Shown in pieces: positions 17,718 through 19,943 of a DNA stretch of 64,000 bases (the first letter of the stretch is position 1; every line of letters begins with the position of its first letter). Both the position numbers and the translations under genes were made by a program. Below the pieces are notes generated by a model. The model was not told the origin of the DNA and searched no databases. It saw nothing but the letters and a program-made list of their open reading frames with translations. Source of the stretch: Gemmatimonadaceae bacterium (GTDB lineage Bacteria; Gemmatimonadota; Gemmatimonadetes; Gemmatimonadales; Gemmatimonadaceae); the NCBI GenBank assembly GCA_036496605.1, contig DASXKV010000050.1, forward strand, positions 124,001-188,000, read 5' to 3'.

Positions 17718-17820
17718 GTCTCGCCGTGTTATCCCGGGCCGCCTCGCGAAGGATGGATTCGCATTTCAGTGCCACCCAATGGGCGACCAGCTCGAACATA
17801 CCTCTGGAGGTAAATCACCG

Positions 17821-18912
17821 ATGCGCGGACTCATGACGACGACGGCCCTCATCGCCCTCGGCGTCGCAAGATCGCCGGCGATGCCGCAGCGTCCGACTCC
17901 GCCAGCCCGCGATCCACGCGCACCAGGATTCGTCGCCGCCACCGAGCTTCCCGACGGCACCGTGCCTTCGCCCACCGCCGACGGAAACTTCATCATCGGG
18001 CCGACGCACGCACCCGCGCCCGAGATGGCCGTCCGTAGCGACGTGCCACACGGCGCCGTCTACACGTTCACGATGCGGTCCGCCGACAGCCGGATCTATC
18101 CCGGCATCGCGCGCGACTCGGGGACATTCGGCGTTCCCGATCCCGCCGACTCGGCGAAGCTCATCGTGAAGACGAGCCATCCCGCGCCCTACACGCGTCG
18201 CGTCGCCGTCTACGTACCCGCGCAATACGTCCGCGGCTCCGTTGCGCCGTTCATCGTCGGTGCCGACGGACCCGACTCCCTTCTCTTCGTCGCCCTCGAC
18301 AACCTCATCGCCGCGAAGCGGGTCCCAGTCATGATCGCCATCTCGATCGGGAACGGCGGCGGGGACGCGCAAGGGAGCGAGCGTGGACTCGAGTATGATA
18401 CGATGTCTGGACGCTACGCCGAGTTCGTCGAGACGGAGGTGCTGCCACTCGTCGAGCGGCAGTACGGCGTGACGCTCACGAAGGACCCTAACGAGCGAGC
18501 GACCACGGGAAACAGCTCGGGTGGCGCCGCGGCGCTCAGCATGGCGTGGTATCGCACCGATCTCTATCATCGCGTGCTCGCCTATTCGCTCACCGCGGTG
18601 AACCAGCAGTGGCCGCCGAATCCCGAGACGCCGCACGGAGCCTGGGGGTATCACGAGCAACTGATCCCGAACAGCCCGGCGAATCCGATCCGTATCTGGA
18701 TGATGGTCGGCGATAAGGATTTGCTCAATCCGAACCCGATGCGCGACGGGATGCACGACTGGGTGCTCGCGAACGAGCGCCTGGCTGCAACACTCGCCGC
18801 CAAAGAGTATCATTATCAATTCGTCTTCGCGCGCAACGCGCTGCACGTCGACCGCGGGGTGCGGCAGCAGACGTTGCCCGAAGCGCTCGAATGGCTATGG
18901 CGTAATCAATGA
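17821..18912 (+). CDS. Secreted esterase, enterochelin-esterase-like alpha/beta hydrolase
   Basis: ATG 17821 is chosen because TGGAGG lies about 8 nt upstream and the product then opens with a signal-like MRGLMTTTALIALGVARSPA; the frame extends to 17779. The 363-residue protein has the Fes/YieL-like layout: KTSHPAPYTRRVAVYVPAQY strand, MIAISIGNGG, nucleophile elbow GNSSGGAAAL with the serine near residue 233, and a C-terminal ALHVDRGV histidine. Family members hydrolyse siderophore or carbohydrate esters. The stop overlaps the OsmC start by four bases (ATGA). Confidence 0.8.
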   Translation: MRGLMTTTALIALGVARSPAMPQRPTPPARDPRAPGFVAATELPDGTVPSPTADGNFIIGPTHAPAPEMAVRSDVPHGAVYTFTMRSADSRIYPGIARDSGTFGVPDPADSAKLIVKTSHPAPYTRRVAVYVPAQYVRGSVAPFIVGADGPDSLLFVALDNLIAAKRVPVMIAISIGNGGGDAQGSERGLEYDTMSGRYAEFVETEVLPLVERQYGVTLTKDPNERATTGNSSGGAAALSMAWYRTDLYHRVLAYSLTAVNQQWPPNPETPHGAWGYHEQLIPNSPANPIRIWMMVGDKDLLNPNPMRDGMHDWVLANERLAATLAAKEYHYQFVFARNALHVDRGVRQQTLPEALEWLWRNQ

Positions 18913-19361
18913 CAACTCCCTCATCGACTCTCCGCGAGTACGACGTCGCCGCCGGATCGACGGCCGTGTTTGGCCGCGTCCTGTGTAGCGTGCGGGACCA
19001 TCACTATGTCATCGATGGGCCGGTGCAGAATGGTTGCCCCGGCGAGGAGGTCACACCCGTCGAGGCGTTCCTCTCCGCCGTCGCGGCGTGCGGTGTCGAG
19101 CTCATTCACGTCATCGCCAAGACGGAGAGCAGGCCGCTCGACCGCGTTTCCGTGAAGGTCCATGGTTGGTCGGACCGCGCCAAGCAGACGCGGACCGACG
19201 TCAGCACACTGAACGGCGTCACGCTCGACTTCAAGCTCTGGGGCACCGACGACGCGAATGCGGCGGTCCTCATCGAATCGTTCAAGCGGCGGTGACCGTT
19301 GTACGGTACGGTCGCGGTCGCGACCGCAGACGTTCAGGTCCGATACGCGCTCGGCGACTAG
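18909..19361 (+). CDS. OsmC-family peroxide/organic-hydroperoxide protein, probable selenoprotein (TGA at codon 129)
   Basis: ATG 18909 overlaps the esterase stop. Residues 1-128 are a normal OsmC domain: GPVQNGCPGEEVTPVEAFLS, then VAACGVELI with the first conserved cysteine at residue 61. At codon 129 the frame has TGA (19293-19295), and the same frame continues PLYGTVAVATADVQVRYALGD to TAG 19359-19361. In OsmC proteins this segment reads Cys-Pro-h-Tyr/His-x-T, so TGA replaces exactly the second catalytic cysteine. A 7-bp hairpin with loop GGTC follows at 19309-19326. OsmC-like selenoproteins have been reported from marine metagenomes. The alternative is a TGC-to-TGA nonsense mutation giving a 128-residue protein without the key cysteine. 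If read through, the product is 150 residues, a normal family length. Confidence 0.75.
19309..19326 (+). promoter_or_regulatory. Candidate bacterial SECIS hairpin
   Basis: CGGTCGC (19309-19315) pairs perfectly with GCGACCG (19320-19326) around the loop GGTC (19316-19319). The loop begins 20 nt after the in-frame TGA at 19293-19295. Published bSECIS rules ask for a 4-16 bp upper stem, a loop with G among its first two bases, and a loop about 16-37 nt after the TGA; all are met. The E. coli fdhF element has a GGUC in its loop at a similar distance. Confidence 0.65.
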
Positions 19362-19451: not shown

Positions 19452-19943
19452 ATGACACGACATCTCCTGATCTTCGCCATCGCAGCCGCGGCCGGCAGCT
19501 GCGCAAGCGGCTCGAATGGCGCGGCGTCCCGGGCCGCGTGCGCGCTCGAATCTGGCGACTCCGTATACCTCGTGCGCGGACCGGTCTATCGTGATTGTGC
19601 GGTCGACGAGCGCGCGGCAGTTATTGACCGTTCCGGACATCCGAACTTCAGTCCCTCTTCACCGCCCCCTGGAGGCCGTGCGTGTTATACGGCTGAAGTC
19701 GAGTTCGTGGTGGATACCCAGGGGATACCGGAGATGGAGACGGTGAAGCTAGTCCGCACGAATAACCCGGATTACGCCCAGGCAGCGGTGCCGGTAGTTG
19801 CTGGGTGGCGCTACAAGCCAGCGATCCTTCACGGAGTTCCGGTTCGACAGATCGTACACGAGAGTGAAACCATGGCCGTCGCGGTCGTTGCGGCGCCGGC
19901 TGGGGAAACCCCGCGGCCGCCGACGCGCGCACCGCTGTGCTAA
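19452..19943 (+). CDS. Lipoprotein with a TonB-C-like domain
   Basis: A 163-residue protein beginning MTRHLLIFAIAAAAGSCASG, a lipoprotein-type signal with a possible lipobox cysteine at residue 17. Residues 75-145 (CYTAEVEFVVDTQGIPEMET, then NNPDYAQAAVPVVAGWRYKPA and G-V-P-V-R-Q) match the beta-alpha-beta pattern of the TonB C-terminal domain, as found in free-standing periplasmic proteins of this bacterial group. There is no membrane-spanning TonB anchor or ExbBD nearby, so energy transduction is doubtful. Confidence 0.65.
   Translation: MTRHLLIFAIAAAAGSCASGSNGAASRAACALESGDSVYLVRGPVYRDCAVDERAAVIDRSGHPNFSPSSPPPGGRACYTAEVEFVVDTQGIPEMETVKLVRTNNPDYAQAAVPVVAGWRYKPAILHGVPVRQIVHESETMAVAVVAAPAGETPRPPTRAPLC

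Follow-up and report, generated by a model that had tools for sequence, protein, structure and literature searches.

The window, that is, the whole stretch of 64,000 nucleotides of Gemmatimonadaceae DNA analysed here, carries on its forward strand an OsmC-family gene whose reading frame is interrupted by a UGA codon. This gene overlaps another upstream, and a stem-loop follows shortly after the UGA:

17779–18912, + strand: putative secreted esterase (PF00756), the upstream gene, whose TGA overlaps the ATG of the OsmC gene (ATGA)
18909–19361, + strand: predicted OsmC-family selenoprotein gene, 150 amino acids with selenocysteine (Sec) as residue 129, based on the read-through translation, PF02566 and the OsmC fold
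19089–19091, + strand: codon of Cys61, the first (peroxidatic-position) active-site Cys and likely partner of Sec129, invariant in 46/46 orthologues
19293–19295, + strand: UGA codon, putative Sec129, at the second active-site position (UGA in 43/46 orthologues, TGC in 3/46)
19309–19326, + strand: candidate bSECIS hairpin, CGGTCGC[GGTC]GCGACCG, with its loop at 19316–19319
19359–19361, + strand: TAG stop of the OsmC-family gene

An earlier sequence-only reading had put the OsmC frame, the TGA at codon 129 and the TAG stop at these same positions, and both the coordinates and the translation agree with ours. Standard annotation would truncate the protein at residue 128. The same reading had also proposed a coupling to the secreted esterase through the ATGA overlap, which is present in the window but is not conserved: tblastn found no esterase homologue beside the other copies (other fetched loci, flanks of 1.5 to 4 kb). 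Among the orthologue loci no gene neighbour common across phyla was found, synteny being confined to clade level (e.g. loci L030, L031, L055 and L095, and some betaproteobacterial loci), and for this reason we claim no conserved operon partner and have abandoned the esterase coupling. A small secreted protein encoded downstream (19452–19943) gave a weak TonB C-terminal-like match, below the cut-off.

The read-through protein matched PF02566 with 39.1 bits (cut-off 27.5; E 1e-9), and the structure predicted from 38 orthologues (pLDDT 90, superseding an earlier model from 10 sequences with pLDDT 79) has an OsmC fold, with 1lql as best match (Z 15.7, rmsd 3.0, 144 aligned) and many Ohr/OsmC chains next. 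Profile and fold together place the protein in the OsmC/Ohr superfamily. Its identity to solved OsmC/Ohr proteins is roughly 8–24%, below 25% to every solved member. Cys61 and residue 129 occupy the two Cys positions common to all OsmC types aligned, Cys61 being among only three residues shared by all of them, and residue 129 shares its alignment column with the second Cys in other OsmC proteins, which bears out the earlier placement of the TGA at the second redox-active Cys. In the Ohr/OsmC order the first Cys is peroxidatic and the second resolving, an assignment that we presume to carry over to Cys61 and residue 129. The family shares with the Ohr/OsmC/YhfA thiol peroxidases (PF02566) not only the fold and these two positions but also invariant Glu and Arg residues close by in sequence (Arg23, Arg29, Glu46, Glu52, Cys61 and Glu64 are invariant across the 46 orthologues). 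It differs from them in having a predicted Sec for the resolving Cys and an almost invariant extra Cys43. The latter, in the motif NGCPGE (codon 43, 19035–19037), is kept in 45 of 46 orthologues, Cys forms included, and possibly has a third redox role or a structural one.

The 46 distinct orthologues (the window protein included) came from 99 relatives, from a phylum-wide search and from about 85,000 species genomes that were scanned; the majority of the orthologues are from MAGs, and their identity to the window protein is 48 to 72%. At codon 129, 43 have UGA and three have Cys (UGC), so that an in-frame UGA aligns with Cys in homologues, the pattern of a bacterial selenoprotein gene. Among the 99 relatives, a clear orthologue is present in nine others, of which eight have UGA at this codon and one has Cys. 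The scan relied on patterns around NGCPGE and AVAACGVE and left the UGA codon out, so the ratio of UGA to Cys forms is unbiased by the search; the window protein alone as query gave no matches in the scan of genome contigs, as against 43 loci in the alignment-based scan. About six phyla are represented, namely Gemmatimonadota, Acidobacteriota, Pseudomonadota (betaproteobacteria), Myxococcota (the named strain Anaeromyxobacter soli SG29 among them), Chloroflexota and Actinomycetota.

OsmC-like selenoproteins are known from marine metagenomes (Sargasso Sea/GOS; PMC1088965), where they have the motif UxxT (PMC2398784, PMC13188914) and a bacterial SECIS just 3′ of the UGA (PMC1088965, PMC2398784). 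From the motif and the model name we infer that NCBIfam NF041052 (OsmC_like_Se; OsmC-related (seleno)proteins) is the same family. This model was the top NCBIfam match of the window protein, and both are OsmC-fold selenoproteins with a single Sec in place of one active-site Cys, which would suit a reading of the window protein as a divergent NF041052 member. The match, however, reached no more than 25.4 bits where the cut-off is 95, and the two UGA members of NF041052 examined (L120 and L121) have their UGA at the first Cys and keep the second (LAF-U-LLTQL and VGF-U-MFSQL respectively, with UxxT in L120, i.e. ULLT against UMFS), whereas the window family reverses this arrangement, with Cys first and Sec second in the motif U-P-L-Y-G. 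Membership of NF041052 is accordingly highly improbable, and by position of Sec and by score the window family is therefore best treated as an OsmC selenoprotein subfamily of its own, in which Sec is predicted at the resolving position. The sequence-only reading had seen here an example of the metagenomic Sec-containing OsmC proteins; the selenoprotein assignment holds, but the marine proteins belong to the other subfamily, and as they differ in the position of Sec the window protein is not simply another example. The open-licence papers searched yielded no account of an OsmC protein with Sec at its second site. One genome (G472) carries two UGA copies of the NF041052 type.

The window hairpin begins 13 nt (stem) and 20 nt (loop) from the UGA. 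With this 20-nt spacing (counted to the loop start), a GGUC loop, 7 bp and −12.0 kcal/mol it lies within the published bSECIS limits (spacing 16–37 nt, stem 4–16 bp, G in loop positions 1–2, energy < −7.5; PMC13188914), as had been claimed for this 7-bp hairpin with its GGTC loop. An Rfam search of the window returned no matches. In a single sequence such a hairpin is weak evidence and could stem from the coding repeat GTC-GCG-GTC-GCG-ACC; about 9% of random synonymous recodings of the same residues in the window sequence retain it. The earlier argument from the improbability of a chance hairpin was thus, on its own, weaker than it looked, and comparative evidence was needed, which makes the hairpin decisive.

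Seven consecutive pairs outward from the loop (six in the stem plus the N1–N2 loop pair) are present in 43/43 distinct UGA forms, whereas 0/3 Cys forms retain all seven. The loop ends are G-C in 16 and A-U in 27 of the UGA forms, with a mismatch in none, and elsewhere the pairs vary between C-G and U-A (position 3), among G-C, A-U, C-G and G-U (position 5) and between G-C and C-G (position 6). Pair changes on the tree number at least 7, 2, 4 and 2 for the loop ends and positions 3, 5 and 6 respectively, pairing being preserved every time; the changes are mostly synonymous and several are synonymous double changes (e.g. GCG GTC to GCA GTT). Third-position entropy of Val codons is 0.17 and 0.95 within the hairpin versus about 1.5–1.7 elsewhere. 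All four independent supported pairs agree in a sign test for covariation (4/4; n = 4 being too few for significance). RNA-level selection on the predicted SECIS hairpin is demonstrated by this comparison of sequences. Of the Cys forms, L031 and L095 can no longer form the hairpin, while in L056 the GGUC loop persists with five stem pairs, the next pair being a C-C mismatch, and this shortened hairpin looks like a possible relic SECIS.

The standard code alone gives a protein of 128 amino acids, and a recent nonsense mutation would have left either a pseudogene or a product now stopping at that residue. The UGA nevertheless stands at the same codon in 43 distinct orthologues spread over about six phyla, and no orthologue ends at residue 128: all have UGA or Cys at 129 followed by conserved protein, the segment PLYGTVAVAT just after the UGA being among their best-conserved stretches. 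With the OsmC-type continuation proposed from the sequence alone thereby upheld across phyla, and a hairpin that covaries, a nonsense mutation is hardly credible.

The frame is open once the UGA is read through, which would also suit decoding as another residue (e.g. Trp in a recoded code) or generic read-through. Against this, the overlapping esterase gene of the same genome terminates with TGA, orthologues without UGA at this codon always encode Cys there, and a SECIS accompanies the UGA in a genome that encodes tRNA-Sec, SelA and SelB, so that we give such decoding almost no weight. The genome (5.97 Mb, 97% complete) has a tRNA-Sec of 78 bits with a UCA anticodon, together with selA, selB and selD; the complete set selA, selB, selC and selD, which the sequence-only reading had proposed to look for in the rest of the genome, is therefore present. 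The selD gene (G000:C9:6983-8093; loci L041 and L001) lies about 100 bases from the tRNA-Sec on the same strand and has its own in-frame UGA near the N-terminus, in the N-terminal loop (FARCAG-U-AAKLG). Its Sec-containing product, an unrelated enzyme of a known selenoprotein family, would be decoded by the same machinery as the OsmC gene. A sequencing or assembly error for TGC, a change of one base, is next to impossible given the same codon in independent assemblies of many species and a complete hairpin in UGA forms only.

The UGA form accompanies the Sec machinery also in other genomes, selA having been found in 33 of the 37 genomes reached via the loci (33/35 with the UGA form versus 0/2 with the Cys form). 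The UGA-form relatives among the 99 have selA too, G039 with a fragment only. The two UGA-form genomes in which selA was not found (2/35) are the MAGs G422 and G423, plausibly because these are incomplete. Of the genomes with a Cys form, G030 retains both selA and tRNA-Sec, and G434 has tRNA-Sec with no selA found. In G244/G424 (loci L056/L084) neither selA nor a clear tRNA-Sec was detected, yet it is here that the shortened GGUC hairpin occurs.

We consider it almost certain from these comparisons that the OsmC-fold gene of the window is a functional selenoprotein gene with UGA129 read as Sec. The gene anatomy makes decoding by SelB and the SECIS very likely: the hairpin would recruit SelB with Sec-tRNA-Sec, and Sec129 would be inserted in place of termination. 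In Ohr/OsmC proteins the active-site Cys pair becomes linked by a disulfide, for which lipoylated proteins serve as reductants (PMC8945050). By analogy with this chemistry, Cys61 and Sec129 would form a redox pair in which a hydroperoxide, probably organic, oxidises Cys61 or Sec129, a Cys61–Sec129 selenenylsulfide forms, and a dithiol donor (a lipoylated or AhpD-like protein, as for Ohr) reduces it. The fold makes such a peroxidase cycle reasonably likely for the window protein, and position likewise leads us to lean towards Sec129 as the resolver; that Sec129 is instead the primary nucleophile, with Cys61 resolving, is a plausible, somewhat less favoured assignment. As a resolver, Sec could quicken formation of the selenenylsulfide and shield Cys61 from over-oxidation.

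This adds to the known OsmC selenoproteins a subfamily outside the NCBIfam models scanned. It and NF041052 would be natural counterparts that share a fold and an active site and carry Sec on opposite sides of it, making attacking and resolving Sec directly comparable. Its spread suggests selenoprotein use across soil lineages, in contrast to the statement that selenoproteins are rarely kept by aerobic bacteria (PMC13188914). Overall, we think it probable that this is an undescribed family, spanning about six phyla with many soil members, in which Sec replaces the resolving Cys, that Sec entered both halves of the OsmC active site independently in two lineages, and that Cys later returned at least once, with a vestigial SECIS remaining in L056.

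Sec-to-Cys reversions are rare in bacteria according to a 2026 review (PMC13188914), and the Cys forms of this family offer candidates. On the tree, the three Cys forms represent two changes, and a single Cys clade is compatible too (AU p 0.109); as such a clade is not rejected, a Sec-to-Cys direction is likely, short of proof. The family tree is unrooted, since rooting with other OsmC proteins failed, the outgroups sitting on branches of about 10 and scattering rather than staying together. The sequences cluster largely by phylum, with exceptions such as the Anaeromyxobacter copy placed among those of Gemmatimonadaceae, which suggests some horizontal transfer in the family. In this copy, from Anaeromyxobacter soli (L057), Cys43 is replaced by Ala.
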